Positions 1 through 28,732 of a DNA stretch of 64,000 nucleotides are shown here, in pieces. Both the position numbers and the translations under genes were made by a program. Numbering within the stretch: position 1 is the stretch's first letter; every line of letters starts with the position of its first letter. Source of the DNA: Physcia stellaris (taxonomy: Eukaryota > Ascomycota > Lecanoromycetes > Caliciales > Physciaceae); contig JABSSW010000038.1 of the NCBI GenBank assembly GCA_018902385.1, positions 1 through 64,000 of the forward strand, written 5' to 3'. The notes beneath the pieces were generated by a model, which saw only the letters and a list, made by a program, of their open reading frames with translations, was not told the origin of the DNA and did not search any database.

Positions 1-1424
1 TTTTTCGTGATTTTTGATTATTTTCATTATTTTGTTCTGTTCTCGTAACATTGTTCGACGATTTATCTAAAAATATCATCGTCGACGAGCAATTGTTTCT
101 GCAATCAACAAATTGACGACTAGTTTGAAATAAAAATCGATTTCATGATTTCGCATTTTTACACATTTGATGCGAATGAAAGCATGAATTTTGATCAACA
201 ATCTCTTTTGTCGTTTCTCGTTCGAGACGTGACGTTTCAATTTGTTTCACAACTTAATTAAATATTGATTGAACGCAACAATGCTTTGTCGAGACAATTG
301 TTTGACATTTTCAATGATAATAATCGTGTTCATGACACGAATCATCGAGTTGCTAAACAACGTCAACAAATAATCTTTATATTGTTTTCATGTTTGTTTT
401 TCAAATTGAACATCAACATAGTTACGTCATTGATTTTTCTTTGTCGTCATTAAAAGCGACGTCGATCAACTTGTTTTCATCTTCTTTGTTTGAAAATTAA
501 CAAAATCGAAAACGATATACTTTTCGCAATCACGCAATCAACTTTTCAAATTGTTTCAATTTTCACATTTTTGCGTGTTTGAGATTTTTGATCGTGCGAT
601 TCGTTTTTTGATATACGAAAACGAATTTTCATATTGATCATCGTTGTTGCGACGACAACGACGATTTCGATCACGTTTCGTTTTCGTCTTGATCAAGAAT
701 ATTTTAAAATCATTGAGTTTTGATTCAGTTTTCAGCATTTTGATACGCATTTTCATCTGTTTGAAAATCACATTTGAGTCGACAACAACAAACACAACGA
801 CATCGCTATTTGACGACAACGAAACAAAATTGTTTTTTCGTTGTGTTTCACTTTGATTAGAATGCGTAACAAATGCTGAATTGAAAAATTGATCAACATT
901 TGAAATCAAAAATTCGAAAACTGAAATGTGTTTAGTTGAAACGTCGACATCATCAAAATCGACAAAATCATTGTTTTCATCAAAATTTTCGAATTGAGCA
1001 TCATCAAACAATTCAGTAATTCGATCGATAAAAAAAAAAACATAAAAAAATTGTTTAATGAAATGATGTTTGATTGTGATGCAATCGATACGATCGCACG
1101 ATCACGAATTTGCGAACGAGTTTCGCGACGACGAGACGCATTTGTTGAGTTGAACATTTTTAATCGAGCAATTTTTGATGTAAAGCAATTAGAACTGTAA
1201 AAATGTAAACATTGCGTGACTAAAATGTGCGAATAATAATATGAATTGTTATGATAAATGCTAAACACATAATAGAATTAATTGCTAAAAAAACAAAAAG
1301 AAATTCGTGAAATTTCGAGTATATAAACACGAAATGCGACAACTAGATTCGCAACGTTTTAGCGTTCGTTTGATCGATTTCGTTTCATTACAATAAATTC
1401 GAAAACAAAACGATACGATAAACA
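1..1424 (-). mobile_element. Probable 5' part of a third LTR retrotransposon fossil, cut by window start
   Basis: AT-rich, heavily mutated DNA. A candidate LTR lies at 1247-1424: it starts TGTTATGATAA, ends GATAAACA, and holds a TATA-like stretch near its middle. To its left are minus-strand open stretches (about 556-1268) rich in Asn, Asp, Ser and basic residues. Their place just inside the LTR is where gag would lie in a minus-strand element. The partner LTR would be outside the window, so the LTR call rests on the termini and arrangement only. The element is broken, with many breaks, and looks old. A solo LTR beside unrelated degraded sequence is the main alternative. Confidence 0.35.
1247..1424 (-). 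repeat. Candidate LTR (178 bp), partner not in window
   Basis: The segment begins TGTTA and ends AACA, the usual LTR ends, with an internal TATAAACACG stretch that could be promoter-like. No second copy was found in this window, so the limits are set by the termini alone. Confidence 0.3.
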
Positions 1425-2219
1425 TTGTAATTTTTTATTGTTTGATTCGTTTGCTGTTTATAATTTTTATATTTTTCGAAATTATTTTTTTTTCTAATGA
1501 AAATTTTTTTAATATTTTTTTTAAAAAAGTCGACATATTTCTTTCAAATATAATTGATTTTCGAATTGTTTTTGATTTTAACGTTTCAAAATAACTGTGC
1601 GATAAACTTTTTTTTCAAAAAAATTACAACAAAAAAAAATTTAATTTTGTCAAAATTTTTGACGTAATCGTTCACTTGATTCATGTCGAATTGATTTTTC
1701 ATTTTTCAAATCTATTGAATTCATTTTTTATAATTATTTTCAACGAATAATTTTGATTTGTTTTTTATTATTTTGATGTAAAACGACTTTTTCTTAAAAA
1801 CAGAAATTTGAACGATCGAAAATACAAATGCACGTTGTAATGTTTTCATTCGAACATGTTGTTGTTGAATATATGTTCGATATTTTTTCATGATAACATC
1901 TGATTTTGATGAATTCAAAATGAATTCATTCTCAAAATTCGTAAAAATATTTATATTGTTGAAAAATGTAAACATGCTGTATACACGAATGATATTAATT
2001 TGTGAATTATGATAATTATTAAAATGTAAAATTCAAAAAATGTGACATCAAAAATGTATAACAGAAACGATTGTATGATTAAATTAATAATTGCAAAACT
2101 AATTATTTTTCAAATTTTTGTTCATATAATCAATCAATCTGTTCAATCGTACACATATTTCGAAATTTATTCGAAAGTATGAATTTGTTGAATTGATCGA
2201 AAATTTGATGTTGACGTGA
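1425..2219. other. AT-rich mutated DNA, nothing recognisable
   Basis: Long A/T homopolymer runs and almost no CC or GG. The open stretches are low-complexity and match no family I know. It is probably decayed repeat sequence lying between the candidate LTR and the dispersed repeat copy. Confidence 0.5.
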
Positions 2220-3230
2220 TCAAATTGATCGTTTTCGTGATTTATCGAATTTCGATGATCGAATTGTTTGATATAATTTTACAAATTTGCTCGTGAATTT
2301 TTTCAAAAAAATTTCGTGCAAAACTTCAAAATTAGATTTGAATCTGATAAAATTGCGAAAATCGATATTTCGCAATTGTTTTGCGATCTCAACGATTTCG
2401 CATTTTAATAGCATTTGCACTCGACAAATAAAACATACAAACGAAAATTCTTTTTGAAATTCGAAATGAGTTTTATTCAAATAATCAATAATATCGAAAA
2501 TCGATCGAATGCGCATTGAGTTATGATCGAAATCGCATCGAAACGTTGCAAACATTTAAAAAAATTGAATTTTCAAAAAACGAAACGTTCGACGATGTAA
2601 TCTTGAAAATTTTAAAACTATTGCGATAACGAATCGATTTTAATGATTTTTGAAACGTTGAAATGCGCTCATTTAACTTTACAATTTTGAGTAGTTAAAT
2701 GAAAATTATATGTGATTGTTGATCGAAATGCAAAATGCGAAACAACTGTACAAACAACGAAAAATTAAACGAAATTTTTTCGCAGACATTTCAATTGACG
2801 ATTTGACACAGATTTGACAACGACGAAATTTTGAAAATTTCAAAACTATTGCGATAATGAATCGATTTTCGTTATTTTTGCAGTTTTGAACTGCGTTCTT
2901 TCTGCTTTACAATTCTAAATAAATAAATGAAAATGATACGTGATGATTGATTGCGATGTAAACGATGCAGCAATTGCAAAGACGCAACGAATTTGATGAT
3001 TGATCGAAAAAAATTTGATGATTTATCGCATTGAAAATTTGAATTCTCAATTGATGAAAGTTATCGAATTTAACGAATACAGAAATCGAATTGATCAAAA
3101 TTCTTTTCGATCGATCATTCGCGTCAAGCGAATTTACAGAATATTTTATTATAGAAAGAATTTATCGAAATTCGACTCGCAATGTTTTGTTGATTTGAAT
3201 TCTGAATGTTTTACATTTTATCATTGATCA
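2220..3230 (-). repeat. Dispersed repeat, copy 1 (inverted relative to copy 2 at about 18150-19065)
   Basis: The reverse complement of about 2290-2550 aligns closely to about 18795-19060, and the plus strand at about 3040-3170 matches the minus strand at about 18190-18320. Differences are nearly all transitions. Inside are two diverged tandem units (about 2570-2760 and 2815-2990) that share a run near CAAAACTATTGCGATAA. No coding family is recognised. The two copies are in opposite orientation about 15 kb apart. It could be a non-autonomous element or part of a larger transposon not otherwise seen here. Confidence 0.6.
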
Positions 3231-3736
3231 AAACGTATAAAACGAAACGTTGATTTGTTTGTAAAACGAAATTTGTTTTTCATACGATCGTGAAATTCGA
3301 TTGTTGATTCGTCGATTGCAAAATGATTTTCAAAAATAATAAACGAAAATAATCGAATTTTGAAAATATTCAAAACGATTTCGATTTTTCAAAATCATGA
3401 TGCATTGTTGTATGATATTTGTTCATTAAATTCAACGTTCAAATGACGTTCAATAACATAATATCGATCGCGATTGAATGATGCATTGTAAAAAATTTTT
3501 TGAAATTAAAATGATTGAATTGTTGCGTTTTTTGCAAAATTTTGAGTCGTTTGAATTCATATAACAATTCATTGACGTAATTTCATCATAATGAGTACAT
3601 TTCAGTTGATTTTTTCAGTATGAATTTTCTAATTGATGTGTTGAAACAATAAATCGAATATCGATTGCAAAAAGAACAAAAACAATTGAACGAATTTTTA
3701 AAACGTTATACAAACGTGATGCAATTGAAATGATCG
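3231..3736. other. AT-rich mutated DNA up to the Gypsy insertion
   Basis: No open frame of note and no recognised motif. It ends at the target duplication GATCG (3732-3736) of the Gypsy fossil. Confidence 0.5.
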
Positions 3737-3931
3737 TGTTATACGTAATGTGTGAATTGATTTATTTAGAAATTATGAACGACAAAATGTCAATTTATGT
3801 ACAATAATTGCGAATCAATTGTTTGATCATATCTCATTTAATATGTAACGATGACAAAATTTTTTGTCAAATGTTTTGCAAGAATATTCGATTTAATTTC
3901 AAATCATTCAATTTGATTTTATGTCATAACA
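3737..3931 (-). repeat. 3' LTR of the Gypsy fossil
   Basis: 195 bp, TGTTAT to ATAACA, paired with 10991-11184. The element runs on the minus strand, so this left copy is the 3' LTR. Confidence 0.85.
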
Positions 3932-6900
3932 ATCTGTCAATCAAAGAAAAAAAAAATCAATGTTTTCATTGAATTTCATGTTTTATCATCATGCGTAATC
4001 ATGTCATGCATCAATTTATTTTTTTTTCGTTTTTCGTATGTCGTTGCGATCATTAAAATTTTGCGAATGATTGAGTTCGTATTGTTCAATGAAATTTTGA
4101 AAATTTTGTAATTCGAAAATGAATCGTCATTCGTTATATTTCGACTCATAGTCGATTCATTTGACTAAATATTGAATTACGAGAATTTTGTTGTATTTTC
4201 TAGTTCGCTTTTCGATTAACTTTTCAATTTCGTAAAATTTGTATTGATTCGTATCGTTTTCGATTTCAATGAAGTCAAAATAATGAAAACGCGAACGATT
4301 GTAAAAATCAATTTCGACAAATGTTAATTCGAGTTGTGCAATAGACACGACGAAATGAATTCGTCATGTTGATGACAATTTCAATTTGTACGCGAAACGT
4401 TTGATGCGTTCAAAAATTCGAAATGATTCACAACGTTGTTGAAATAGTTTCGAATTTAATTTGTCAAACAATTTGTAATCTTTGTTGAGTTGTAAATAAA
4501 TTTTTCATTTTGTTTTAATCGAATAGAAATATGACGCGCGTCATAATATATTTTGATTTTGATAATCGCAAAATTCGTGACATCGACAATTTTTCGTTGA
4601 TATTTCATGCGTTGAGTTGACAAATTTTGTATTTTTGTTGTGTTAAATGCGATTAGATTTGATATCGCGTTTTTGATTTTGAACTCGTATATGATCTCGT
4701 TGAATAATAAATTTGTAACGATGTTAAACGTGTTGTTTAATTGAATTTGAATTGTCGAAAAAGTTAAAATGTAATCGATGTTCGAAAACTCGATGACGAA
4801 ATATTTGATAACAATTTCAACAATTTGATTGATTCGTTTTGATGAGTCATTCGTTTGCGAATGATATGTCATTGAAATTAACAATTTCGTGTCTAATTTG
4901 ATGAAAAACATCTGTCAAAAATTCGACATGAATTTTGAATTTCGATTTGAAATTATAATCTCAAACACATTTCAATCGATTATTAACAATTTGTTCAATA
5001 ATGCGTTGATTCATTCTTTCGTTTCATAATTTTTTTTGTCGAAATCAATGAAACTCGACGAGAATATTTACATGTTGCGAACATAACAATGTTCATTTCG
5101 TCGAACATAATTAAAATGAAATCAATCGCAATGATGTAAAATGAACGCGAAACGAATGTGATAAACATGAATTTTTCGTACGATCGATGACGTTTGATTT
5201 ATGCTAATTGACAAATAAAACAATGCTCGATGTATTTTTTAATTTTTCGCGAAAGTCGAAATATGTATAACGTATTGAAAATTTTGTCATAACATCGATG
5301 AACTTTTGAATGTTGATTTTGATCATGAATTAAACGAAATATTTTTCGTTTCATTGTAACAAATATACACGATCGACGCGAATCAATGTCAACGTGATAT
5401 ATAATGTCATTCGTATTTATCGCGAAATTGATTTCTGTTTTGAATTTCTTTGATATAAATTTCGTATCGTCATTTTTTTGCTCATTGACGTTTCGATTTT
5501 TTACGTTGTCTTCGAGCGACGACGAGATTTGAAAATTTCGAATCGACAAATTTTGTTTTTTTTCGTGCATTCGAATCGTCAACGATTTTAACATCGTGAT
5601 CATGTTTTGTCACGTTTTTTCGTTTTGATATTCGTTTTTGATTTTCTTTTTTAAATTTTTCGACATGACAATAAGAATGCTTTGAAAAACGTAACAGTCG
5701 AAATTATTCGAAAAATCGATTATTTCATCATGATATGTGTTCAAATCAAGTTTATTTTTTGAATTTTTGTCGATTTGCTCATTTTCAAAAGTTAATTTTG
5801 ATAACGCATTCGAGACAACATGATTTTTTTCTAATTTATATTTCATTTTCAATTTAAATTGTGACAAATAGATTGAAACACGAACAAAACGAAAATTGAA
5901 TTTATCGATGTTGTTCGAGTTCATCGTGATTTGTTTAACGATGAAAATATTGACGACATGATTCGTGAACACAACAATGATATCTTTAATTGTTTTTATC
6001 ATATGTCGAACTTTTTTGACAATTCATACTAAATCACACATTTCGAATTCGATGAATCAATATTTGATTTCGATTTCGTTCAACATTCGATTTAGAAATA
6101 GAATGAATTCGATATCGTTACGTTTGAATTTGTTTGAATTATTGTTTGTTTTGAGATGATAAATCATCGCGTCGAATTCGCGTCGTTGAAACGCGTCGAT
6201 GTCGATATACAATTTTCGATCGAAATTGAAATGTATCAAAAATGAAATTTTGTTAAAAGTTTTTTGCAATAGTCGATATGATTTTAATTTCTCAATTGAA
6301 AAATTGTTTATTACAAATTTTTGCGAATAGATTTTGCGAATGATTTCTTTGTTGAACGAAAATCGACGTAAAAATAAAATTTTGCGACGTTATAACGCGT
6401 TCGTTTTTTGAGCGTAAAACGCGACAAAATCTCGTAATCATTTTGTTAAATCTAAATAGATTTTCAAATTTTTCAAAATATAAAGAAAATTCAATTTGAT
6501 TATAATTTTCAATTTATCGATTGCGATAATGAAATCAAAAACGTCAATTTTTTGATCAAAAAGTGCGATCGTAAAATAGTCGAGAAATGATTTTTTCGAC
6601 GATAAATTAATTTCATAAATATTCAATCGTTCGAACATCGAATGAAAATGAATCATATGTTTTTCAAAAATATTGAAAAAAACAACAATATTATCTACGT
6701 AAACACGAGCAAATTCGCGAAAATTTCGAAAAATAGAATCGATTCGTCGTTGTACGTATGATGATGAGTTTTTAAAATTCATCACGACGACGTTAAATTG
6801 TTTTTGTTTTTTATGTGAAACGACGATAAATTTATGTTTGTTTGCAAATTTTATCAATCATTGATGAAAAAAATTCGCAACGTCAAAGACGAATATAAAT

Positions 6901-9900
6901 TTGCAATCGACGACAATTGAAATAATGTTTGATTAAAAAAACATAAAATAGAAATTGATTAAAATGATTTTGTTTAATTCGCGTATATTCATGACGATTC
7001 GATTTTTGCGTTTTGAATCATTTAATTCAAATATTGTTTTTTATATTGCGAAAACAAAATAATCATGCGAAATGAATTGATTGATGTACTTCATGCGTTC
7101 TCGAACGTGCAATTTATCGAAAATCTCATCAACGAGTTTTCGATTTGCAAAATCGAGAGAATAGATTTTCGTTGTTTCAATTTTCGCGTCGAGTTTGAGC
7201 TCAATTAACATTCATTTTTCAAACGAAATTCGCACAGTAAACTCGTTATCATTTCACAATTTTGAATAATTTTCGATTACATTTGCAAACTTAATTCGTG
7301 CGTTAATATCATCGTAAATCGTGATATTTGCGATCAAAAAATAAACTCAACATTAATGTTTGAATTTGAAACAGAATTGTTAGAATTCTCGCACGAATTA
7401 ATTGCAAAATTGATCGTAGAATTGAAATTTGAAACGACGAAATTAATCGCGATCGCATCGTGCAAATTTTTATAATTAGTCGTTATAATCGCGTCAACGA
7501 TCAAAATCGAAACATTAAATTTTATAGTTTGTTTGAATCAATTTCGTGAAGCAAATTTATGAGCATTAGCAATTAAATGAACGTATTTCGAATCAACTAA
7601 ATAACATTTTTTTCTCGTATTTTTGTACGAGTTTCAAACGCGTATTTTTGAGAATGTAAACATTTTCAAAATTGATGTTGTTAATTTGAATCATCTTTGT
7701 ATGTGCATCAATGATATGAAAAAATACGTTTTCATTTGAATCTAATTTTTCAATTCGCGAGAACGTGAACATAAAGTCGCGTTCAATAAATAAACTATTC
7801 TTTTCACGTAATTTGAAAAAGATCGCAAAAATTGATTTAATTGAAATTTTAATAATTTCGTTGACACGAATCACGCGTTTGATCGAAAATTCAACATTAA
7901 TAATATTGAATTGAATTTTAATGTCTTTGCAATTTTCAATGATAACAATTTGTTTGTTTACATCTATACTCATTCATTTTGAATTCAATATATCATTGTC
8001 AAGAAAAATCTTTGTTTTCAATTTTTTCATTATGTAAATTTGTCGAATAAACGTGACAATCGCATTCTCGTCATCAATCGAAATTTTAAAAACACGAAAA
8101 ATTAGTGAAATATGATCAATTGTTGTGACGACGACGTTTTCGATATCGCGAATTTTGAAAAATTTTATAATTTGTCGCGCATGTGTTTTGTAATCAAATA
8201 TTTTTTGCATTAGAAATTTACGATCGATTAAAAATGCATCGCATTCGATATCGACGCACATATCGATGAAAAATTGTTTTATGTTTGTTTTTATCGTGAC
8301 GTAACGTCACGAACGAAATTCGAAATTGAGTCGTGTATTTGTTTTGACGTTTAATTGTATAATAAATGTTTGATAATTATGAACATTTTTCGTCGACGAT
8401 GTGTCAAATTTAGTCGAAATTGTTTGACACGAGCGCAGATGTCGATGAAATTTGTTATTAAAATAGAATTTCGATTGACAACGTTTGCATAAATAGATTT
8501 TTGTTTATTTAATTGAAATATTCACAAAATATTCGAATGATTCATGCGTCACATAATTTTCATTAAATTTTGAGTTTCGAAATGCTTTTCGTCATGATAT
8601 TCATCATTTATCATAGATATTTTTGACGCGTTCTCAATATTCATGTTGTGATCATTTTGATAATTTTTTTCATCGTTTGAATAAATGTTTTTTGTTTTTC
8701 TTTTGCAAAATACGCTCGTCGATATAATGTTTCATTTTAATTAGACGTTTCATTTTGATTAAAATAAATATTTTGTTTAAACGAAAACGAGAATGAATTT
8801 GAAAAATCAACAAAATATTGATTAAAACGTAAAGATTGCGAATATTGAAATCGCGAATCGAACGTGTTTCGATTTTTTTGAATTTCGTTTTGTTGCGTTT
8901 GTTGAAATCGATATTGTTGATTTGCGTATGAGCGTTTTTGCATATTTTGTGTCGATTGTTGTCGATTTGAATAATTTGATTGATACGAACGTTGTTGTTG
9001 TTGAAAAACGTAAACGTTATTCTGTTTGTTAAATTGATACGAAATTGAATATTGCGTTTGTCGTGATTGCGAAAAAAATTCATTGAAATTTTCGTAATCA
9101 TTACGTTCATTGATGAAAAAAAAATATTATACGAATCGAATGAAATTGAAATTTGAAAACGATAAATGAATTGAAAACGACGATCGTTTTCGAATGAATA
9201 ATAGAAACGATATCTGTTTTCGATGTTTCATTATATTTTTTTTTATCATCAAACTGTTGTAGAAATTCGTTTATGATAATTTTTTCTGTCGATTTAGCTA
9301 AATCTCGTCGAAATTTCAATTTCAATTTATTGTAAATCAGATAAAACTATGAATAAATTGACATCATAATCGATTTAACATTTTTGATTATTATTTCGAC
9401 GAAATCGAATGATTCTTTATGTTTGCGAGCATTTTTTATAATGTATTTCTGTTTCGTGATCATCGTCAACGTCGTGAACGACGATTTTTTATAACGTTTT
9501 AACAACAGACGTTTTCACTTTTTTACGTTTTTTTTAATTTGATCAATTTTTTTTGATCGTCATTAACGATTTCAATATATCATCGTAATGCATGATCACG
9601 CATGCAATTATAAAAATTTGCTCGAATTACATCAACATTTTTGAGCAATGTCATATTTTTAATTTTTTCAATATAGAGATGAACATTTCGAAAATATATA
9701 TTTTTGCTCGAATGTTCGATCGAATTGTCGATGATAACGTTCTTTTTTTCGTATCACGAGTCGAAAAATTTTGTTTTTTGAACATTTCATTTGACGTCAT
9801 CGTCATTGTCAAAAGATTCGATTGAATTTGATGATTCGACAAAATTTTGAAATTTTGTTTGAACATCGTTTCGAACATTTGTAATCAATATTTGAAAAAT

Positions 9901-10990
9901 TTGTCATTGTTGTTGCGTGAATTTCGTGTTTTGTCAATTGTTATTTTCGTTCGTCATATTTGAATTGAATGCGAAAATAAATTCGATATTTTCTGTGTTT
10001 CGAAAAATGATGTTCAACGAAATTATAATGTTGTTTCGTCGTTGAAAAAACGACGTCGACGAAATGATTTGAAATTTACGACGTAAATTCTTCGAGAAAT
10101 GAACGTAAAAAATATCAAAAAAGATATTTGCAATCGTCGATTTTAAATCAAAAATGAATGACGTAATTCGATCATTAATTTAATCGAAAAATGATTGATT
10201 GTTTCGATACGTTTCGATGACGATCACGAAAATTTTAAAATTTTTGCGAAAGCGAGTTTTGTCGACGATTCATTTTGTTGAATAGACAATGTTTGTCGAG
10301 ATTGAGTGATTAGTAATTGACAACGATGTTGATTTAGAACAATTAATTACGATATTGTTCACAATAGTTTTTGCAAATGTATTGACAAAATAAATTGAAT
10401 CAATTGTATCGATGTAATCGAATAACTCAAACGCAATGCGAATGATTTGTGATATAAAAACAATCAAAATGATTTAAATGAAAATGATGTGTCGTATTGA
10501 GATTTGAAATAAAATGATAATAAACAGAACAAAAAAAGAAAAACAAATTGAAATTTTCAAAATTTGTTGAACAAATTATTTGTTGATGAAAAAACAAATA
10601 AAATTGTTAATTTGAATTGCTCGAATCAAACAAAAACACAATGATGAATTGACATTCAAATGTGTCGTCATTGAGCGATGACAATGCGAATTTTCACGAA
10701 AAATCGAGATGTTTTGAATATTTGAATGAAAAATCAATCGTCTTTGTTGAGAGTTGTAGAAAATTGAAAAGATTTAATTGAAATTCTAATTTTCAATTGA
10801 GTGAAATGAGTTGATCGATCGTCGAAATCGAAAAAGCAACGAAATTTTCGATTGCGACAACGAAAAAAATATTGATGAACAAATGATTTGCGTACAGAAT
10901 GCAAAACTGTTCGAAAATTGATACGTTAAAAAACAAAAAATGATGTCGTTTTGTTTACGTACAAATCATCGTTTGAAAGATGCTATCAAT

Positions 10991-11184
10991 TGTTATGCGT
11001 AATGTGTGAATTGATTTATTTAAAAATTATGAGCGACAAAATGTCAATTTATGTACAATAATTGCGAATCAGTTGTTTGATCATCATTCATTTAATATAA
11101 AACGATGACAGAATTTTTGTCAAATGTTTTGCAAAAATATTCGACTTAATTTCAAATCATTCAATTTGATTTTATGTCATAACA
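10991..11184 (-). repeat. 5' LTR of the Gypsy fossil
   Basis: 194 bp, TGTTAT to ATAACA, paired with 3737-3931. The next bases, AATCG, repeat the GATCG that precedes the left LTR except for one G/A transition. Confidence 0.85.
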
Positions 11185-12780: not shown

Positions 12781-12822
12781 TCTTACCACTCAAAAAGGAC
12801 GATCCATGATGCATCCTGCAAC

Positions 12823-16975: not shown

Positions 16976-17120
16976 TGTCAGACTGCATGGAGTCGTAAAT
17001 CATTGATTGCATGTTGTTCTATGAAGTGCTAATTTACATGGTTTTTAGCATCTAATGTCATTGAAATGCGCACTAGTTATTAAGCTCTTGACGATTTTTG
17101 ATTGATCATCTAGTTTTACA
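16976..17120 (-). repeat. 3' LTR of the outer Copia fossil
   Basis: 145 bp, TG to CA, paired with 28952-29096. The outer two thirds still match well; mutation is concentrated in the part touching the AT-rich interior. Confidence 0.75.
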
Positions 17121-18149
17121 CATCTTTTTAAAAGAAAATATTTGATATTTCGTTTTATTTTTGATGTTTTATTCATTTTTCGATGTGATTCATGATGCGA
17201 TTTATTCGATTTTTGATTGATCGAATTCGTTGTTTTTTTTCGATTTTGATATCGAAATAAATTTTAAATCAATCAGTTTCACGAATGTTTTTTGCTTTTG
17301 AAATGATAAAATTTTGATGAAATCATCGATCAAAATATTCGTTGTAAAAATTCATTGAATGTTGATCGTGCTTTTTTGCATTTTTTGACGTAATCAATGA
17401 CGATGTATATCGACATGACGTAATTTAATGATTAATTTGATCGTTGACATAATAAACGTTCGTATAATTTGACGATTATCGCATTGAATGTGAATGAATT
17501 TTTTCATATTTATTTGTATTGATTCAAAAAAACGATTTTATTACATTTTGATGTTGATCGTCATTGACATGATCAACAATTCGATTTCGATGAAATTAAT
17601 TGTGATTGTTTTTTGTTTTGTGATTTTTCAATCGATGAAATCGTCGAAAAACATAAAACAATATTCATTTGAATTTTGACGAATGTTTAAATCGTTTGCG
17701 AATGACGCATTTGACGAAATTAAAAAAATGATGATTGTATAATTTGCTTGATTTTTGTAAACAATGACGTAATATTTGATGTGTGTTAAATATTTTAGCG
17801 TTCGAATCGTTTGCTTCGCATGATGTTTAAATGAATTCGTAAAATATTCAAATAATAACGAAATTGCAACGATTACATTTGATCGAATTGTTGTTGCAAC
17901 GAAATTGATTGAATTTATTTTTTGTTGATACATATGACTTTTTTGAAAAATAACATTATTTTCATTTTTTATCATCGAAATATGAGTGAATATAGACGAT
18001 TTTGATTTTTTTTTGATCATATCAATGTTGAATTTGTTGATGAATTTGTCGATATAATTGTTTTGACAAAACGACGTTGTTTGTTGTTTTCTATCGCGTG
18101 TAATGCGAATATTGAAAAATCATTCGATTTCGTCGATGTTTTTCATCTC

Positions 18150-19065
18150 GTATGTTTCGAAAAGTTTTTTTTCGAAAACGTCGATTTGTTTGAAATAAAA
18201 TCTTTCTATAATAAAATATTCTGTAAATTCGCTTAACGCGAATGATCGATCGAAAAACATTCTGATCAATATTGAAATCGTATTCTTTAAATTCGATAAC
18301 TTTCATCAATTGAGAATTCAAATTCTCAAAAAGAAAATCTAGAAATGAACATCAAAACAATTTTCGCACTGTACAGTTGTTTCGCAATTTGCACATCAAT
18401 CAATAATTACATATGATTTTCATTTATCTAGTCAAAGTTGTAAAGCAACATGAGCGCATTTCAAAATTGCAAAAATAACAAAAATTCGCTCATTATCGCA
18501 ATAGTTTTGAAATTTCGAAAACTTCATGATTGTCAAATGTGTGTCAGATCGCAACTGAAATGACTGCGAAAAAATTTCGTTCATTTTTTCGTCGCTCGTA
18601 CAGTTGTTTCGCAATTTGCACATCAATCGTCAATCATATATGATTTTCATTTTAATACTCAAAATTGTAAAACTAAATGAGCGATTTCAACGTTTCAAAA
18701 ATCATTAAAATCGATTCGTTATCGCAATAGTTTTGAAATTTTCAAGATTACATCGCTGAACGTTTCGTTTCTGAAAATTTCATTTTTTCAAATATTTGCA
18801 ACGTTTCGATGCGATTTCGATTATAATTCAATGCGCACTCGATCGATTTTCGATATTATTGATTATTTGAATAGAGTTCATTTCGAGCTTCAAAACGAAT
18901 TTTTGTTTGTATATTTTATTTATTGAATGCAAATGCTATCAAGATGCGAAATCGCTAGAATCGCAAAGCAGTTGCGAAATATCGATCTTCGCAATCTTAT
19001 CAAATTTAAATCTAATTCTGAAGTTTTGCACGGAATTTTTTTGAAAAAATTCACGAACAAATTTG
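18150..19065 (+). repeat. Dispersed repeat, copy 2, inside the outer Copia fossil
   Basis: Matches 2220-3230 in inverted orientation. It holds two tandem units with a period of 227 bases, each starting GTACAGTTGTTTCGCAATTT (18371 and 18598). It separates the RNase H and reverse transcriptase remains of the outer Copia, which suggests insertion into that element. Exact ends and any target duplication could not be fixed by eye. Confidence 0.6.
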
Positions 19066-21436
19066 TATTGAAAATAATACATGATTGTTATATCGTTCAC
19101 GAAAAAAAATAAAATCATGTAATTATTGATGAATAAACATTCGATATCGAACATTTGTTTCAAATTTAAATCGTTAAAAGTGATCGACAAATGTTTATAT
19201 CATAATGTTGAAAATTGTTTCAATTCATAGAACGTCTTTAATAGAAATAATAATACATTGTTCGTTTTTTTTCAATCGTCAAACGATTTACAATAAATTG
19301 ATTTATCGATATCGTTGTTTGCGAACGCATTGATCGCGTTATATTGACGAATGTTCAAATCGAAAATTGTAATTATAATCATTAATGTTCGAAAAATTCT
19401 AATAATTAATGTAATTGCGTAAACATTTTGCTCGATTTGTTGAAAATTTTCTCGAACACACAATCGAATTTTGTGTTTTATCAAATATTTCTCGTTGTCG
19501 AATTTGTATTTGAATATTTATGTGATAAATATAAAATTTTTTTTTGTTTGTTTGACATGATTTCATGAAATTTTTTTTCAAATTTGTTTTGATTGTAATG
19601 TTTTGATTTTCACGTCAATGATTCGCAAAAAAATCGACGATTTCAAAATATTTGAACATTTGATAATAAAAACATGATTCGACGAAAAAATCGTCACGAT
19701 GCGATTTTTTTGTCATTGAAATTATGAATGTTTCATAAAATGAACGCATTTTTTTTGCTAACGCATTTTTTAAAACGATGAAATAATTGAAATTTCGAAA
19801 CGAATTTGATTTGCGAATGCGAATGAATTTTTCAAATTGAATATTGATTTCGTCAATCGTTGTTTTCGTTCAATGTTTTGATTTTTTTCTTTCAACGACG
19901 ATACAAATGAAAATAGTTTCTTTATTGTTTTTGCAACGACAAATGACGAGAAATTTTCTGTAACGACAAATGACGAAAAATACGAAAAATCAAACGTATT
20001 TGACGTGTTTTCATTTTTTGACGAAAATGAAACAAATAAAAATAAATATTTTGATTCAAAATCGTTTTCAATCATTTGTTTGTGAAATTTTTTTGCATCG
20101 CGATCGATAATAGATTTTGTAAATGTTAATTTTTATACATTTTCGTCGTTGTTTGATTCGATGTTCATTATTTTCGTGAAATCGTTTTGCGATATGTCAA
20201 ACGTATCGTTAATCAAAAAAAGCTCGTTAACGAATTGAATTAAATTTATTTCGTTAAAACGATAACGTGAATTTTCGTTGAATGTGACATCACGTGTACG
20301 TATAATTTTTCGTTGACTAAAAATTTAAATCAAAAAAATGTTGATGTTGTCATAATTTACAAGAAAATCGATGTGTGTTTTGATTTTCATCTTTTTTTTC
20401 TTCGAAATATTTTTATTCAAAAAGTATGTTTTTGTTTTATATTGAACGATGTGAACAAAATTCGATTTTTTGTCAATGATCATTTCGAACGATGTTTTTC
20501 ATTCATGCTTTTTGAAAAATGTACGATTCATTATGTAATTAGCGATTTCATTGATTCACGATTATAAATAAACAGATAAATTTGTTTCGAATTTCATTGT
20601 TCGTGATTTAATCAACAATATGTCATTTAATCGTTCGTTGTGATCGTTTTGTGTTGAAATATCAACGATCGAAAATTCATATGTAATGTTTTTGAATGCA
20701 CAATAATTATTTCAAACAATGTTTAACGCGCGTTCGTCGTCAAAACGTACAAATATCATTTTGTCGTTGTATTTGATCTCGATGATGTGAATAATTCGAA
20801 TAAATATTTTCGTGATTTGTTTTTTGTTTTCATGCGTGTATATCATGTGAAAGTTTGTTTCGAAACATGTCACGTGTGATATTCATTTGTGTTTGTTTAA
20901 AATCGTTGTTATATCGATGAAATCGTATATTATACGATAAAACGATTTGTTCGAAATTTTTGATTTTACAAAAAATTTGAATACAATTCGATGTGTTTTG
21001 AAAAAAGCACATTTTTCGCATTTGTTAATTAGTGACGTTTTATTTTTGTTGATAAATTTCATTTTTTCAATTGTTTTTTGTAAATGTTATATGACGTCAT
21101 TATTTGCATAAACGAAAAATTGATGTCATTTCAAAATAAATTTTTGTCGCACGATAATTGCGAAAATGTTCATTTTTTCAAATTTATTATTTTCGAAAAC
21201 GTAATGTGTTTTTATTCGTGAAACGAAAACGATCGATGCATCGTTTTTGTGCAAATATTCATAAATTGTATCAAAATGCAATTTTTTGTTTGCGAAAATG
21301 TTTTTCGCGACGATATTGATCATGAAATCTGATACGTAATTGACGTTTAAAAATTTCATTGATTTTTTTTTGTGAACGTATCGACGTTGATACGTATTCG
21401 ATTATATGTCAAAATAAAAAATGATTTTATGTCGAA

Positions 21437-21632
21437 TATTGAACGAATATGAATGATTGTCATTGCATTGCATGCAATACTATCGAAATTACGTATAGAA
21501 ATAAATACAATTTGATTGCGCAAATGTTTCTAGTAGTGATCGATTTTGACACGTCTCGTTTAGTCGATCAATCAGAAGTTCTGATTCTATTCGTGCTCAT
21601 ATTTCAATTTTTTGTCATCGTACTTTTCAACA
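21437..21632 (-). repeat. 3' LTR of the inner Copia fossil
   Basis: 196 bp, the same length as 27118-27313 and about 93 percent identical by eye. It is preceded directly by the target duplication TCGAA. Confidence 0.85.
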
Positions 21633-21741
21633 TTTTCATTCGATGACAATTATGCTCATTGCACTCGTGAATGCGACTTTCATTGAATTTCAATTCATGC
21701 ATTGATTGTGATTTTCATTGAGTGCTAATTCGTGCAACGAC

Positions 21742-22142
21742 GTAATTCTCATTGAGTTTCAATTTCTAAATTCATTGATGAAAAAAACATTGAATTTCTC
21801 TGATCAAAAAATTGATTTCGAAAAAAATCATTTTGAATCATCATGCAACTCGAGTTTGAGCACGATCAACGAATTTCTGTTTTCAATCATAGCTTGTCAA
21901 ATTCGTACAATCGAGTCATCATCGCTTCAGAATGAAAGAAATGACGTAATTTTCATTAAACTCGAACTTTTTTAATATTGACAAAAAAAGCATTGACTTT
22001 TTTTGATCAAAGAATTAAATTCGAACGATTTCAAAGAAAATCATTTTGAATCATTATGCAATTCGAGCTCGAGCACGATCAACGAATTCTCGTTTTCGAT
22101 CATGACTCGTCAAATGTGTACGATTGAATCATCAACACGTCA
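21742..22142. repeat. Tandem duplication of about 200 bases near the 3' end of the inner Copia
   Basis: Two units with an offset of 213 bases around the shared run ATCATTTTGAATCAT (21827 and 22040) and a shared CACGATCAACGAATT. Each ends with a TCGTCAAAT- or TTGTCAAAT-like phrase. It lies between the RNase H remains and the 3' LTR, so it is probably untranslated. Confidence 0.6.
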
Positions 22143-25100
22143 ACATGAAAAAAGCAATTCTAATTATTGAGAAAAATTTAATTGATTCTCGATTTTTTCA
22201 ATCTCAACTGTTTCACGAATTTCTTGAATTTATTTTTTGACAGTGATTTAGTCAAATCATCGACTATCATGTTTGCATTTGAAACGTAGTTCAATTGAAT
22301 TAAATTTTTTTGATGCAAATTTCTGATGTTGTGATAAATCACATCGATGTGTTTTGATCGTTCATGAATATGTGCGTTTTTGATCAACAAATTAGCGATT
22401 TGATTATTCTTTAAAAGTTGCATTGATGAACAGATTTCATGTTTATCGTTTTGAGTGATTGCTATTTGATTCAATTCGATTTCAAAATATTTAATGAGAT
22501 TCAGATCACGAAGAAATTGTGTTATTCATAGTTTTTCTTTAGCGCATGTCGATAAAATCATATACTCGATTTCAATGATTGAAATAACGATCGATTTTTG
22601 TTTACGACTCATTCACGATATTGATTTTTCAACGAACATGTAAACGTATTCGAAAATCGATTTTTTGTTTAATTTATCGATTGCGTAATCAAAATTCGAA
22701 TAAATTTTGATTTTGAAATTTTCATTGTTGTTCAGTCTCAAGTCGTATACAAAATCTAAATCGATGATCGATCGAATATAACGAAACAAAATCTTCATTG
22801 CTCTATCGTGATGTTTCGCAAAATCACTGAGATATTGATTTAATCGTTCTAATGCGAAAGCGATATTTGAACGAGTGTGTATGACAACATACATGAATTT
22901 TTCAATTTTGTGTTGATAGTTTTTTGAATCAATTCGTTCGTCGTTCGATTCAGCTGATTTGAATGAGTCGTAATCGTTCATGAATAGTTTCGTACGTTCG
23001 TGTTTATCGATATTCATATGCAGCTCATTCAATATTTCGTTCAAATAATGAGTTTGATTCAATCGAATAATTCGTTTTTTACGATCGCGAGTGATTTTAA
23101 TGTCAAGAATTTTCTTCATTTTTTTCAAATTTTTGATTTTGAATATCTTTTTGAACTTATTTTTGAATCAATTGACTTGCTCGTTGAATTTGACGACAAC
23201 AAAAATATCGTTCACGTAAAAAAACAATATGATTTCTCGTTTTTTATAACGAAACATGCAAAAATCAATCGAAATTTGTTCGAAATTCAATTTATGCAAT
23301 TCTTTCACGCAGCGCTCGTGTCAATTTCTAGTTGTTTGTTTCAATTCATAAAGATTTCGACGAATCAGAAATGTTTGTTCAAAAAATAAATTCACGTCGA
23401 ATGACGATTTCATGTAAATTATTTTCTTTAAAAATGATTTCGTGAAAACATTGTTGACGTTCATTTGATGACATTCGAGATTTTTCAACGCAACGATGAC
23501 AAAAAACAGACGAAAAATATCGAATTTGACAATTGAAACAAAAATATTTGTATAGTCGATTTCGTATATTTGCGAAAAATCTTTTGCAACGAATTTGATT
23601 TTCAATTTGTTCAATGTATCATTCACATGCATTTTGATTTTGAATATTCATTTATTGATGACGATATTGACGTTTTTCGATGAAATGACGACGTTTCAAG
23701 TCTCATTGACTATTAACGTCGTCAGTTCGATCTGAATAATCTCGAGTCAAAGTTTGTTTCAAATAGAATCATTGACGATTTTCTGATAATTCTCGAGTAC
23801 AAATATGACTAACTTTTCAACGAATTGTCGATTTGTTTTTTTTGTTGTTGCAAATAAAATTCACTCATCATGCTCGCACGTATCGAAATTTTCGATCAAA
23901 AAAATCATCATGACGCGTGCAATTTTGTTGCGATGCTCATCTCGTTTTTTCTCGTTCGTGATGTCTCGTTTACGTTTAGAAATTGTCACGTGAAAAAACT
24001 GCCGTATCATGCGTGAAGATTTCGTGAAAAATGCTAATTTAACACGCGTTTGAATTGTCGACTTCGTCGTAAATTCGTTGATTTCATTTTTTTCATTTGA
24101 TGTATCGATAAATTCATCGTTCTTTTTCATGTGCATTGATTGAATTTTTTTTTTGTTTTTCGAAATCATAGACGCAATGAAAATCGAAAATTTTGCAAAA
24201 ATTGATGCAACAAAAATTGATGCAAACGTCGATGTCATCGAAACGATTGCAAATGCAAAAATTATTTTGCGTGATTTTTCGACAAATCGTTTTTCAAATA
24301 ATTCGTTCATTGTAATCGTGAGCAGATTTAATGACTCATTTTTTCATTTTTCGTTTTCAAAAAACATTATTTTGTGATGTTTAATGACATCGCGACGATC
24401 AGAAATTCATATTTTGTATTGAGTGATGATGTTTTCGTCATAATTCATGAACACATTTGATTTTTTTGTATTGACGAATTTGTTCTTTTTGTTTCTCTCG
24501 AACAATGATTTGATATCAACGAACGAATAACATTTGCATTTTCAAACGCGTATGTGATTTATCGACGATTTAATATTTGTTCAAATTTCAATAAAATTTG
24601 TAGAATTGTCGTCGATTATTGATTTCGTGTTCATACGATTGCGAACATATACATTTGTTTTCTTTGTTTCAAGTCAGAATTTTATAGACAACTTTGCATT
24701 TTGAGTCATTGTTCGAATTTGATTCTCGAATGTTTTTATGACACGCTCTATTACATCGTTTTGAATGAAATTATACGAAACGATGTATTGTGAAACAATG
24801 TCGATAAATTCGCATCAAAAATCAAATATAGATTTCAATTTTTTGACGTTGTCACAACGTATTGTCTGTAGTTTTCGTTGAGTTTTTAGTTTCATTTTCA
24901 ATTTTCATTTGTTGAGAATTTCAGAAACATCGACTCGTTTGCGAAGAAATAGAATTCACGTTCGTCGAGAATGATTATTCACGATTTCTAAAAAATATTC
25001 GTAATCGAATCTTGAAACAGATAAAAATTCGCAAATATCAATAAACATCAATTTCAATATATGAGTTTTGCGTTCGATTAAACGACGATTATGTGCATTG

Positions 25101-27099
25101 ATCATCTTCGTAATCGCACATATTTTACATGAATCGTTGCGATTTTCGACGATGAAAATCGATTTGCGTAAAATTGTAATTTTGTGCAAATTTCGAAGTT
25201 TTGCAAATTTCATATGATCAAAACGTCGATGTCATAACTCGTATAAATCACGTCTTTTTTGATCAACATTTGAGTCAATATTTGAGTCAATATTTGAATC
25301 AATATTTGAATCAACATTCGATGATTGAAAATCGATTTCGATATCATTTCGAGAATCAATATTTGCATCGAGCAAAATTTCGTTCGAATTCACGATTGTT
25401 GACATTGCAAATGAAACAGACAAAATTTTAAAAAATTCAATTGCAAACATCGTGTTGCTCGTTAACAATGCGTATTTTTTAAATTTTGATGTGATTTTGT
25501 TTATTATGTAAACATTTTCTTGAGCGAATGTTCGAAATATTTCAACGTTTTGTTTATTGCGCATGAACAAATTATCGTTATTAAAATTTTTTATCAAATT
25601 CTTTTTGATAAAATGTTTGTCGAATAGAAAATTGACGTCGAAATCAAATACATAAAACATTTTCGTTAACGTGTTTTCATCATTTTTGACGCGCATCGTC
25701 ATTGAATCACATTGATTTGAATACAATTTTTTTCTTCGATCTTGATCGTGCGTCTTTTAATCGATTTGAAAAATTCATTAAAAAATCGAAAATCGTCAAT
25801 CATGTGTGACGAGACGTCGATATTTGCGATTCATACGAACTTGAGAAATTTATTGATCAACTCTTTTGACAAAACGACGATTTTTTTCATATCGTTTTCA
25901 TTGTTTGAATCGATGTCGATGTCGAAATTGAAATTGTTGTTAAACGAAAAAAAGTCTGCGACGTTGTACGTTTTATGTTTTTTGTTCTTTTTTTTATTTT
26001 TGATTGTGAGCAATTTTTTGATTTGTTGTTTCTTTGCTCACTTTTTTAATGTTTTCAGAAAATTGCATTCGACGATTCTGTGTGAATCGTCACAAAAAAA
26101 ACAATCTTTAATTTTTTTCGTCATGATTTTGAAACGACGACGAGAACTTTCATCAAAATTAAAAAATCGTCGTTGAAATATGCGATACGATTGACGACGA
26201 TTGTTTTTCGTCATTAACGTCGATTCGACGATTTTGCTCGCAATGAATTGTGCTTTTTTCTTTTGCAATTTTTGAATAGATTTATCGACATCGAGATTGT
26301 TTTGTGCGTCGATTGCATCACGAATGACATCGTATTCGACAAACAAAAATGCTAAAAATGTTTGAAAACGACGTTTTGATTTGAACAAATTCATCATGTT
26401 TGATTGCATGTTTGCAATTTTGCGACTCTTTTGATGATATCGATATAGACGATCTCAATGATCACGTTTGAAAATTTTTTGTAATTTATGAATTTTTGCA
26501 ACAATTGTCGTTCAATTGTAACAAATTTTTGTTTGTATTTGTTGACAAAAACTTTTCAAATTTCTTTGACAGTTTTCAATTTCGTCATCAATTTTTGATT
26601 ATCGTCATCGATACATTCGATGAATTGATATTGTGTTTTTGCGTCGAACTTTTTTTCAATCTTTTTTTCATCAAAATTCAAATCGACATCTCATTTTGAT
26701 TTTCGAAAATCATTCGACAATAGTTTCGACACATAATCTGAATCGACGATCATTCAAATTTTTTCGTCGATGAGTCATTGTTTCATTAATTTGAATCATT
26801 TCTCGCAATTTTGACGAGTGAGAATATCGCAAACTCGACGCGCATTGAATTTGTTGAATTCGAAATCGTTCATGATGCGTGATATGATATGTAAATATGT
26901 AAATTTTTTCTATTTGTTGTATTTCGTGAAACATTTTCACAGTCGTTCGTTCATTCGTTGAATTGATGATCGAACTCGAATATGTAAAACATTTCTACAG
27001 TTTTGACGCGATCGAATCGATGAAACATTTTCATTGCTGTTTGATTTTCGTGATTTCGTGATCGAACGATTGACGTTGACAATCACAAAAAACTTATGC

Positions 27100-27117
27100 T
27101 AACTCGAGCTCATAATC
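27100..27117 (-). other. Primer-binding-site-like segment of the inner Copia
   Basis: On the minus strand, directly next to the 5' LTR, this reads GATTATGAGCTCGAGTTA. Copia elements are known to prime from an internal fragment of initiator methionine tRNA, whose complement gives a site of the GGTTATG... type. The match is partial, as expected in mutated DNA. Confidence 0.5.
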
Positions 27118-27313
27118 TATTGAACGAATGTGAGTGATTGTCATTGCATTGCATGCAATATTATCGAAATTACGTACAAAAGTAAATACAATTTGATTGC
27201 GCAGATGTTTCTAGTAGTAATCGATTTTGACACGTTTCGTTTAGTCGATCAATCAGAAGTTTTGATTCTATTCGTGCTCATATTTCAGTCTTTTGTCATC
27301 GTACTTTTCAACA
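27118..27313 (-). repeat. 5' LTR of the inner Copia fossil
   Basis: 196 bp, paired with 21437-21632 and followed directly by the target duplication TCGAA. Confidence 0.85.
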
Positions 27314-28732
27314 TCGAACATAATTTTCGATTCGTTTGTGCAATTTCGTTTTTTTTGAAAACGTTGTTTCATTGTGTTGTTGATCACGTGAATGTCGAAA
27401 TCGTGATTCATAATTCATGACGAACGAAAAGAATAATTTGACGAAAACGAATCGTTTGTAAACGATTTTATAACATTGACGTGAATGACGACGAAAAATT
27501 CTATTTCGATTTTTGTGCTTTTGTTATCGTTTTTTTTTGACGTTTTTCGTCAACTCGTTTAATGTTCTGTTCTATTTGTTTTTTTTTTTTTTGAATTTTT
27601 CTTTGTTTCGTCTATTTTAGTCACGATTTTTGATTTCAATTTGAAATCATTTGAACGTATGTTTTCGTTGAAATAAAAACAATCGTCGTAAAAATGTTTT
27701 TTTTCGCAAATGCAAAAATTTCGAAATTGATTCTGATTTCGAAATGACGAAATGTCGAAAAAATTTCGATGATTTGTGTGTTTGCATTCGTCGATAACGA
27801 ATGTCGAATTAAATATCGTTTTTTTTTTTTTTTTCGAATTTTTTTCATGCGCATGTGATGTCGAAAAATTTCGATGAAAATAAAAAATTGTGTTTCGTGA
27901 TTCGTTACGATGTTTAATTGAAATAATTGTATTTCAACGAAAATAAATGCGATTTTGTCGATTGCGTGTAAAAAATCACGATACGTTCGTTTGTTATTGA
28001 TAATTGCAACAATTTTCGTTTGTTTAACGAAAATCAACATTTTCAAATAGTCGTCTAATCAAACATCGATGTTTTGATGATTGAATGAATTTTTGATCAT
28101 GCGATTGTATTTTTGTTTCAATTTCAAATTTCTAGTCGAATCGATGAGTGCAAAACGTGTTTTGAAAACACGAAAAACGATTCATGAATGAATTTCAACG
28201 ATTTGAATAAAATTGAAATTTGTAATCGTTGTTGTATCGTAAATGTGATCGATTATTTTTGTCATGAAATTTTTTTGTTTTTTTCAATTTTGAAGTTTTT
28301 TTTTGTATTTCGACGTCGTTATTTTGTATCGAGCATGTTTTTCGCTGAAATTCGCATTTTGTTGTGTGTCAAAATTGAATTTTAAAAATTCAATTTTTTC
28401 TATTGATTTAATATCGTTGAATAAATCGATGAAATTTCAAATCGAATATTTTGTGATTTTGATTCGTACGATCGAAAGTCACGCGTCTCAATTTTTGAAA
28501 AAATTCAATTTGAATTTTCGTTTCGTATTCGTTATCGTGTTAAACGAACGAATAAATAAAAAAAAAATTTGATTGTTGTTAATTGTAAAAAAATGTAAAC
28601 ACAAAAATGTTTTCGCGATGTTTTGATTTTTCGTGTTAATTTGTCGAAACAATCGAATGTTGAAAATATTGATAATTAAATAAATCACGTATTGAATGCA
28701 ACAATTAAACGTGATTTGTGTTACGAGCATGC

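Follow-up and report, generated by a model that had tools for sequence, protein, structure and literature searches.

The window analysed here is a 64,000-nucleotide stretch of the Physcia stellaris genome (assembly GCA_018902385.1, contig JABSSW010000038.1, positions 1 to 64,000). It contains two AT-rich, repeat-filled blocks on either side of a gene island (Table 1). The putative Gypsy element of the first block has a second converted copy at C50 (L021), with 89% identity across 7.4 kb. In the second block, the inner Copia carries an RVT_2 match at 23015–23707 that is interrupted by 4 TGA codons. Segment 27900–28716 of the outer Copia matched 30 other places over almost its full length at 88–95% identity, and judged by this identity only, these copies are presumably also converted. 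The same segment was 71–75% identical to three little-mutated copies. The right LTR of the outer Copia was 97% identical to one LTR of the little-mutated copy L029 and 92% identical to the other. The ~205-bp repeat at 28732–28937 also flanks, on both sides, L039 and L040, two RVT_1 elements at C12 and C5 that are little mutated; it is therefore probably a solo LTR that landed where body and right LTR of the outer Copia meet.

Table 1. Repeats, gene island and AT-rich DNA mapped in the window (CpY, CpC or CpT).
Feature	Position	Strand	Basis
AT-rich block, CpY-converted, zero CC/GG	1–11330		dinucleotide counts
Dispersed-repeat copy, CpY-converted, inverted relative to 18195–19067	2280–3165		repeat comparison
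Converted LTR element (putative Gypsy), LTRs 3654–3957 and 10911–11211	3654–11211		repeat comparison
Gene island, unconverted, Clr5-domain protein, CC observed/expected 1.01	11331–17090		composition
Left LTR of outer Copia; CpY conversion 1/8 at outer edge, climbing to 100% inward	16976–17120	-	polarised comparison
Outer Copia body, part next to left LTR, CpY-converted	17121–18197	-	
Dispersed repeat within outer Copia, CpY-converted	18195–19067		
Outer Copia body, polarised against little-mutated L027, L028 and L029	19065–21439	-	
Inner Copia, LTRs 21437–21633 and 27118–27314	21437–27314	-	
Outer Copia body, CpY-converted	27315–28715	-	
Unconverted ~205-bp repeat	28732–28937		
Right LTR of outer Copia, nearly unconverted, 4/32 CpY changed	28945–29096	-	

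Dinucleotide frequencies in the window blocks were expressed as observed/expected ratios over both strands. Block 1–11330 (GC 0.273) contained neither CC nor GG, with ~211 per strand expected from its composition, and its ratios were 0 for CC, 0.29 for CT, 1.29 for CA, 3.14 for CG and 0.44 for TA. Block 17090–28730 (GC 0.284) gave 0.00, 0.31, 1.32 and 2.93 for CC, CT, CA and CG, with a single CC at 24002 and a single GG at 19032. CpT was thus reduced to ~0.3 of expectation in the AT-rich blocks, CpA and CpG were retained, and TpA/ApT was 0.40–0.44. The gene blocks (11331–17090 and 28731–64000) had ratios of 1.01 for CC, 1.00–1.08 for CT, 1.08–1.09 for CA and 0.82–0.90 for CG, and CC and CT were depleted in the AT-rich blocks only. 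The original prediction, placed at 1–28730, described CC/GG as near-absent, CT/AG as scarce, and CA/TG and CG as kept in the AT-rich blocks. The counts bear this out, more strongly than claimed; the gene island inside the interval 1–28730 has normal composition. They are also the opposite of a loss of CpA/TpG with raised TpA. C/(C+T) for each 3′ base, computed with A, G or T as the 5′ neighbour, fell in the AT-rich blocks to 0.000–0.002 before C and 0.08–0.11 before T. Before A it was 0.48–0.62 versus 0.48–0.66 in the genes, and before G 0.47–0.50 versus 0.38–0.48. Context classes with a 5′ C were emptied in the AT-rich blocks because CpC is contained in them.

The direction and order of the changes were determined by comparing a piece of 2.4 kb from the outer Copia with little-mutated relatives, in which CC and CT are normal; gapped columns were omitted from the pair counts. 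With L028 as reference, the piece had lost 257 of 266 CpC, 257 of 284 CpT, 41 of 329 CpA and 18 of 287 CpG, which gives the order CpC > CpT >> CpA and CpG. Conversion was similar with L027 and L029 as references. The changes comprised 274 C>T, 299 G>A and 52 of all other types at 2374 aligned sites, so both strands of this heavily converted piece were changed. The 5′ neighbour had no effect at the target dinucleotides (NCC 94–100% and NCT 89–93% converted). Among the rarer CpA changes, a 5′ C was commoner (CCA 17/80 versus 4/77, 8/89 and 12/83 for the other NCA). CpA (12–15%) and CpG (6–9%) also differed in these comparisons, which counts against a strict CpY rule.

The LTR pairs gave a mixed picture. 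From the right LTR of the outer Copia (reference) to the left one, over 159 aligned bp, 10 of 12 CpC and 5 of 20 CpT had changed, along with 1 of 29 CpA and 0 of 6 CpG; the prediction of nearly exclusive CpC/CpT change with CpA and CpG kept was correct here. So was the predicted ratio of roughly three CpT per CpA in the inner Copia, where the 12 differences were 9 CpT, 3 CpA and 0 CpG. For the Gypsy-type pair, the claim of mostly CpT differences failed: among 59 differences in 300 bp, 38 were transversions, and the C/T transitions fell on 9 CpT, 8 CpA and 4 CpG. CpT leads in this pair only per site (9/12, versus 8/89 for CpA and 4/43 for CpG).

The little-mutated copies L027, L028 and L029 are ~95% alike over 4.6–4.8 kb, and L039 and L040 share 95% identity over 3 kb. 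Among such copies, C-to-T differences at CpC (0.038–0.050) were slightly ahead of those at CpA (0.022–0.034), and in one pair CpG (0.040) equalled CpC (0.038). L029 is not brand-new, as its two LTRs have come to differ at 8 of 129 sites; 4 of these differences are C/T transitions, 3 at CpY, which is too few to tell a preference. A constantly active RIP ought to have hit copies of this kind, and their coexistence with converted ones counts against the RIP-like reading unless the process is episodic or these copies are protected or recent.

Conversion stopped at the left edge of the outer Copia. In 60-bp steps inward, CpY was changed at 1/8, 7/15, 16/20 and 17/17 sites, a drop that spans 180 bp, and CpR (CpA or CpG) conversion was 0 in the same steps. 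The flank (16300–16968) was reached by none of the 39 other scored matches (40 of 166 candidates scored). Because the two rounds of repeat matching scored only 40 of 168 and 40 of 166 candidates, the uniqueness of the flank is not absolute. Confinement to the repeated segment with fading at its edge is a trait of RIP, seen here in one element.

A displaced rDNA unit, a repeat that is not a transposon, was CpY-converted as well. In conserved columns (upper-case consensus letters) of 5.8S and LSU model positions 1–452, with SSU and the rest of LSU excluded, 12 of 13 CpC and 10 of 24 CpT were changed, compared with 0 of 15 CpA and 0 of 16 CpG; when all 5.8S columns, including lower-case consensus, were counted, CpG stood at 5/26. 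RIP acts on any duplicated DNA and not on transposons alone, which agrees with this one unit. The Copia and rDNA comparisons together support the predicted C-to-T process with a need for a 3′ pyrimidine.

Depletion of CpC and CpT was found in all 123 AT-rich 1-kb bins, drawn from 13 sources (including the window) in the 44-Mb genome. The survey comprised 324 bins after omission of the overlapping stretches L001–L004 and L031, of L039–L042, and of part bins and bins with N. From GC 0.36–0.40 down to 0.24–0.28 (93 bins), CC relative to baseline fell through 0.25, 0.07, 0.03 and 0.003, and CT through 0.54, 0.49, 0.29 and 0.12. At the AT-rich extreme, CA and CG were lowered as well, to 0.82 and 0.92 at GC 0.20–0.24 (28 bins) and to 0.76 and 0.50 below 0.20 (2 bins). 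None of the 123 AT-rich bins passed the canonical RIP index of TpA/ApT > 0.89, and canonical CpA-directed RIP was rejected.

A different strand pattern appeared in the lightly converted copy L026, which had 14.8 GG per kb versus 59.8 CC per kb and, in one frame, 15 TGA versus 2 TGG codons. The asymmetry extends over ~3.4 kb, with the G-to-A excess on the coding strand. L026 thus seems to be converted on one strand only, as judged from this single copy without an ancestral reference: L025 gave no match to it, and L030, at 59–61% identity, was of no use. No clear one-strand bias was seen by eye in L017, L041 or L042.

The genome encodes two RID-like methyltransferases, whose catalytic parts are 40% identical and which carry the PCQ motif, and one DIM-2-like protein; all three genes sit in normally composed DNA. 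The names RID and DIM-2 are putative and follow features of the proteins (EQT instead of ENV; size). No solved RID structure was named among 46 structure matches, the best of which were DNMT1 chains. Eight PF00383 (cytosine deaminase) matches were also present, six of which were inspected and lie at loci of normal composition. The search for a deaminase neighbouring these enzymes yielded one match ~25 kb from RID2, but by eye it resembles a RIB2-type deaminase of the riboflavin pathway.

We consider it likely that the AT-rich blocks consist of transposon copies that a RIP-like process has degraded, with a RID-family variant of 3′-pyrimidine specificity as the putative agent. C:G to T:A transitions were concentrated in repeats, as in RIP, and two RID-like methyltransferases are encoded. 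A preference for CpA, typical but not defining of RIP, was absent from the window, the Copia, the rDNA and the bins. Non-CpG 5-methylcytosine placed at CpY in repeats by a DIM-2/heterochromatin route, then slowly deaminated without any homology-triggered mutator, would fit the presence of a DIM-2-like gene and the intermediate degrees of conversion. This is unlikely, as nearly all CpC were converted with CpA and CpG little changed, conversion drops at the repeat edge, and slow both-strand decay would not give the one-sidedness of L026. In Zymoseptoria, moreover, DIM-2-linked mutation reportedly turns CpA into TpA.

An AID/APOBEC-like or other cytosine deaminase acting on repeat DNA, for example by editing minus-strand cDNA in the course of reverse transcription, would account for the G-to-A excess on the coding strand of L026. 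The eight PF00383 matches also speak for it, although the one near RID2 looks by eye to be of RIB2 type. AID/APOBEC enzymes, however, read the 5′ side of their target, and no 5′-neighbour specificity was found at CpC or CpT. APOBEC3G resembles the present process in its CC target and strand-wise action, but it alters the 3′ C and needs the 5′ C, whereas in the present process the 5′ C of CC is the one altered, whatever base precedes it. Since both strands are changed in heavily converted copies and the rDNA, no retroelement, was hit, cDNA editing was rejected as the sole cause, and we regard a deaminase in general as very improbable. Skewed composition, which transposons can have, would explain the blocks with no mutation at all; we rejected it and give it practically no weight, because the polarised comparison contradicts it, CC and CT are at normal levels in the little-mutated relatives of this Copia, the rDNA obeys the same rule, and the complete lack of CC falls far short of expectation. 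The original prediction had left a non-canonical RIP enzyme and another deamination route side by side. With two RID-like genes present, the RIP-enzyme route fits better than a free deaminase, because conversion halts at a repeat edge, heavy copies are hit on both strands, one light copy is seemingly hit on one, the rDNA is affected, and the 5′ neighbour is irrelevant at CpC and CpT.

Under this RIP-like reading, the mutator would be a RID-family cytosine methyltransferase, one of the two paralogues, with altered target recognition. It would require that the target cytosine be followed by a pyrimidine. The process converts CpC to TpC at ~2–4 times the rate of CpT to TpT conversion, with CpA and CpG little or not affected. 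Homology between copies may be the trigger, action would precede meiosis, and a single round would act on one strand, as L026 suggests.

In Neurospora crassa, RID-dependent RIP follows the order CpA > CpT > CpG > CpC according to excerpts of PMC5496416; CpA comes first and CpC last, unlike here. CpT-to-TpT change is among the main classes of RIP in Botrytis, Sclerotinia, Magnaporthe and Anisogramma, as far as excerpted accounts go; CpT exceeded CpA in Neurospora Tad1, where CpA was raised too (PMC2621366, in part), and led in LARD alignments of RIP-capable control fungi (PMC7882544, in part). A strong CpT class by itself is therefore not new. In those four genera, however, CpA is targeted too, and CpC is not named as leading target in the excerpts, whereas the present signature is led by CpC and spares CpA. 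Two rid genes and dim-2 occur in Anisogramma, as in the present genome, and a partial table in PMC4352252 seems to list two RID-class genes each for Botrytis and Sclerotinia. Tuber, Microbotryum and Rhizoctonia solani AG8 share a C-to-T bias in repeats (in AG8, near repeats), but it is directed at CpG (excerpts of PMC4352252 and PMC4014442), which is spared here. In Table 2 of PMC4014442, CpC SNPs are the most frequent single class for the basidiomycete AG8, with one per 214 bp across the genome and one per 301 bp in repeats; according to the same excerpt, these SNPs are heterozygous and spread across genes and repeats alike. CpC depletion or CpC-to-TpT change is noted alongside dominant CpA in portions of PMC2621366 and PMC8959702. 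No CpC-first repeat mutation is described in excerpts of the open-licence literature, in which CpA, CpT or CpG leads.

A survey published in 2025 and covering 1,239 genomes concluded that a CpA preference is common to RIP-like defences (PMC12543289); the target order is inverted here, with a CpC count of zero over 11 kb. In our judgement the chances are even that we are dealing with a separate class of mutator, directed at repeats and strictly specific for a 3′ pyrimidine, which arose when one RID paralogue altered its target recognition following an ancient duplication. If so, the view of a shared CpA preference would be incomplete. As the TpA/ApT index is blind to a CpY process, some fungi called RIP-negative may carry such a mutator, and these calls may need review. 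With two RID-like paralogues in the same genome, the basis of RIP dinucleotide choice becomes testable.

Stop codons in RVT_2 matches were 401 TGA, 101 TAA and 3 TAG (137 matches; 150 of 165 candidates scored), and in RVT_1 matches 250 TGA, 33 TAA and 3 TAG (150 matches; 150 of 527 candidates scored). Change at CpY does not account for the TAA stops, 134 in total. The sole stop that it creates inside a sense codon is TGA from TGG, which agrees with the excess of TGA, and with in-codon stops arising from Trp only, CpY conversion would disable genes differently from classical RIP.

The composition of the AT-rich blocks agreed with the original prediction that CC and GG would be nearly absent and CT scarce, with CA and CG retained. 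In the left block, CC and GG together numbered 0 (both strands counted), where ~211 CC per strand were expected from composition. The observed/expected ratios in this block were 0.29 for CT, 1.29 for CA and 3.14 for CG (both strands). The right block held a single CC and a single GG (both strands). The share C/(C+T), computed with A, G or T as the 5' base, was 0.000–0.002 before C and 0.08–0.11 before T in the AT-rich blocks, while before A (0.48–0.62) and before G (0.47–0.50) it remained near gene values. Dinucleotide counts were normal in the gene blocks of the window, and the transition zones at the block borders were tens to a few hundred bp wide.

Coordinates of the features discussed (window positions unless a contig is named)
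Feature	Position	Remark
Left AT-rich block	1-11330	
Right AT-rich block	17090-28730	
Gypsy-type element	3654-11211	
Outer Copia	~16976-29096	minus strand
Compared segment of outer Copia	19065-21439	
Inner Copia	21437-27314	
Left-edge query	16300-17100	
Outer part of left-edge query	16300-16968	
Right-end body piece	27900-28716	
Inserted repeat	28732-28937	205 bp
Right LTR of outer Copia	28945-29096	
RVT_1 family of the repeat	C12:57396-64094	
L026	G000:C20:569401-574400	lightly mutated Copia copy
L032	G000:C41:41001-50000	displaced 18S-5.8S-28S unit
L034	G000:C6:765836-766144	cytidine-deaminase-family gene

Three little-mutated members of the outer-Copia family (L027, L028 and L029) served as references for polarised comparison. 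Against L028, C-to-T conversion in the compared segment had affected 257/266 CpC, 257/284 CpT, 41/329 CpA and 18/287 CpG sites; against L027 and L029, the values were 95–96%, 89%, 15% and 8–9%, respectively. In the outer Copia, the 5' neighbour of the target C had no influence at CpC or CpT, and the low conversion rate at CpA was raised by a 5' C (17/80). L032 is a non-transposon rDNA copy, whose ancestral state is given by conservation, and it was also converted at CpY (CpC and CpT). In columns with an upper-case consensus, 12/13 CpC, 10/24 CpT, 0/15 CpA and 0/16 CpG were converted; across all 5.8S columns, where the pan-eukaryote consensus is a less sure reference, the counts were 13/15, 8/12, 0/21 and 5/26. 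This unit was the single 5.8S match in the genome among 39 of 2644 candidates scored, and a pattern search for an unmutated or simply converted 5.8S found no copy; therefore, the functional rDNA array may be absent from the assembly.

The LTR pairs had been predicted to differ mostly at CpT (Gypsy-type and inner Copia) or at CpC and CpT (outer Copia). This was borne out for the inner Copia (12 differences: 9 CpT, 3 CpA, 0 CpG) and the outer Copia (CpC 10/12, CpT 5/20, CpA 1/29, CpG 0/6). For the Gypsy-type pair, per-site rates did lead at CpT, but raw counts were 9 CpT, 8 CpA and 4 CpG and transversions made up 38/59 differences, so that CpT is favoured per site only.

The pattern extended beyond the window. 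The sample comprised 324 bins of 1 kb, taken from the window and from loci fetched elsewhere in the 44 Mb, 147-contig genome, with contig ends and retroelements over-represented. GC was <0.40 in 123 bins, from 13 sources including the window; in all 123, CC and CT were both lowered beneath CA and CG, and in none did TpA/ApT exceed 0.89. Across GC 0.36–0.40, 0.32–0.36, 0.28–0.32 and 0.24–0.28 (n = 4, 17, 27 and 45), CC relative to baseline stood at 0.251, 0.073, 0.033 and 0.003, and CT at 0.540, 0.492, 0.294 and 0.117. On a log scale, CpC was thus lost 2.2 to 3.7 times faster than CpT. Two further copies agree with this series: per 3 kb, L042 retained 48 CC, 129 CT, 181 CA and 201 CG (speed ratio 3.1), and L041 retained 5, 66, 218 and 177 (3.3). 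Because CA and CG were also lowered in the most AT-rich bins (0.82 and 0.92 in 28 bins; 0.76 and 0.50 in 2 bins), CpA and CpG may also be slowly attacked or decaying.

No description of CpC-led, CpA-sparing repeat mutation was found in the open-licence literature searched (subscription papers lay outside), and we therefore class this process as a previously undescribed form of RIP rather than an ordinary member. Earlier work gives the order CpA>CpT>CpG>CpC for N. crassa and lists CpA~CpG before CpT>CpC for T. reesei (PMC5496416). A CpT lead was known earlier, for Neurospora Tad1 (PMC2621366) and for alignments of RIP-capable control fungi (PMC7882544). A 1,239-genome survey describes CpA preference as common to RIP-like defences (PMC12543289). 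Rhizoctonia AG8 is called CpG-biased, yet the commonest SNP class in Table 2 of that source is CpC (PMC4014442).

The process does not act at every opportunity, since little-mutated, open-frame copies that are ~95% alike (L027, L028, L029 and L039, L040) occur alongside related elements whose copies are converted. Among them, C-to-T change was slightly more frequent at CpC (0.038–0.050) than at CpA (0.022–0.034); in one pair, CpG (0.040) equalled CpC (0.038). The L029 LTRs differed at 8/129 sites, with 3/4 C/T transitions at CpY, a sample too small to tell. In L026, CC stood at 59.8 per kb versus 14.8 per kb for GG over a 3.4-kb frame, AG was 52.7 (a different Copia family has ~70), and TG was unreduced; one frame of 1125 codons, otherwise open, contained 15 TGA and 2 TGG codons. 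This single case, with a G-to-A excess confined to one strand, is possibly a snapshot of one round on one strand, a reading that draws on strand asymmetry because the fetched loci included no little-mutated copy of its family. No clear strand bias was seen by eye in the copies L017, L041 and L042.

Conversion was limited to repeated DNA, as profiled on the outer Copia. At the left end of this element, CpY conversion rose in 60-bp steps inward (1/8, 7/15, 16/20, 17/17, 17/17) with 0 CpR (CpA and CpG) converted, and 0/39 other scored matches to the left-edge query extended into its outer part (40/166 candidates scored). At the right end, conversion of the body continued as far as 28715, with 43/45 converted over its final 200 bp. 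The body piece there had 30 other near-complete matches at 88–95% identity and 6 partial ones (40/42 candidates scored), versus 71–75% identity to the three little-mutated copies; since the 30 resemble a copy that is itself converted, they are presumed converted too. Beyond 28715 lay the unconverted inserted repeat, followed by the nearly unconverted right LTR (4/32 CpY). Because the repeat flanks little-mutated RVT_1 elements on both sides, at C12 and C5, it probably represents a solo LTR from the C12 family that inserted where the body and the LTR of the converted Copia meet. The right LTR may thereby have been separated from the homologous body.

A CpY change can create a stop within a codon only as TGG to TGA; classical RIP also turns CAA into TAA and CAG into TAG. 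Tallied by hand transcription, 137 RVT_2 matches (150/165 candidates scored) contained 401 TGA, 101 TAA and 3 TAG, and 150 RVT_1 matches (150/527 scored) contained 250, 33 and 3. CpY change does not explain the 134 TAA stops. Stop-free matches numbered 4 for RVT_2 and 10 for RVT_1, and the elements read among them were L025, L027, L028, L029, L039 and L040; absence of stops alone is no proof of absent mutation.

The genome encodes HET and Clr5 domains and has predicted introns; taken with its RID-like and DIM-2-like genes, these features suggest a filamentous ascomycete. The original prediction had proposed to look for RID and DIM-2 homologues, and a PF00145 search gave three genes, one DIM-2-like (C3) and two RID-like, all within normally composed DNA. 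By sequence, RID1 (L007, C5; 935 aa by exon join) and RID2 (L005, C6; 515 aa) both appear RID-like; they have PCQ motifs, share 40% identity in the catalytic part and are probably an old duplication. In a 2015 study, CpT signatures in Botrytis, Sclerotinia and Magnaporthe were associated with RID-class proteins that carry an additional motif (PMC4352252), and Anisogramma is described as having two rid genes and a CpA plus CpT signature. By analogy with these cases, a division of labour between two RIDs, one reading CpY, would be a natural hypothesis. L034, RIB2-like by eye, lies ~25 kb from RID2; this proximity is probably a coincidence.
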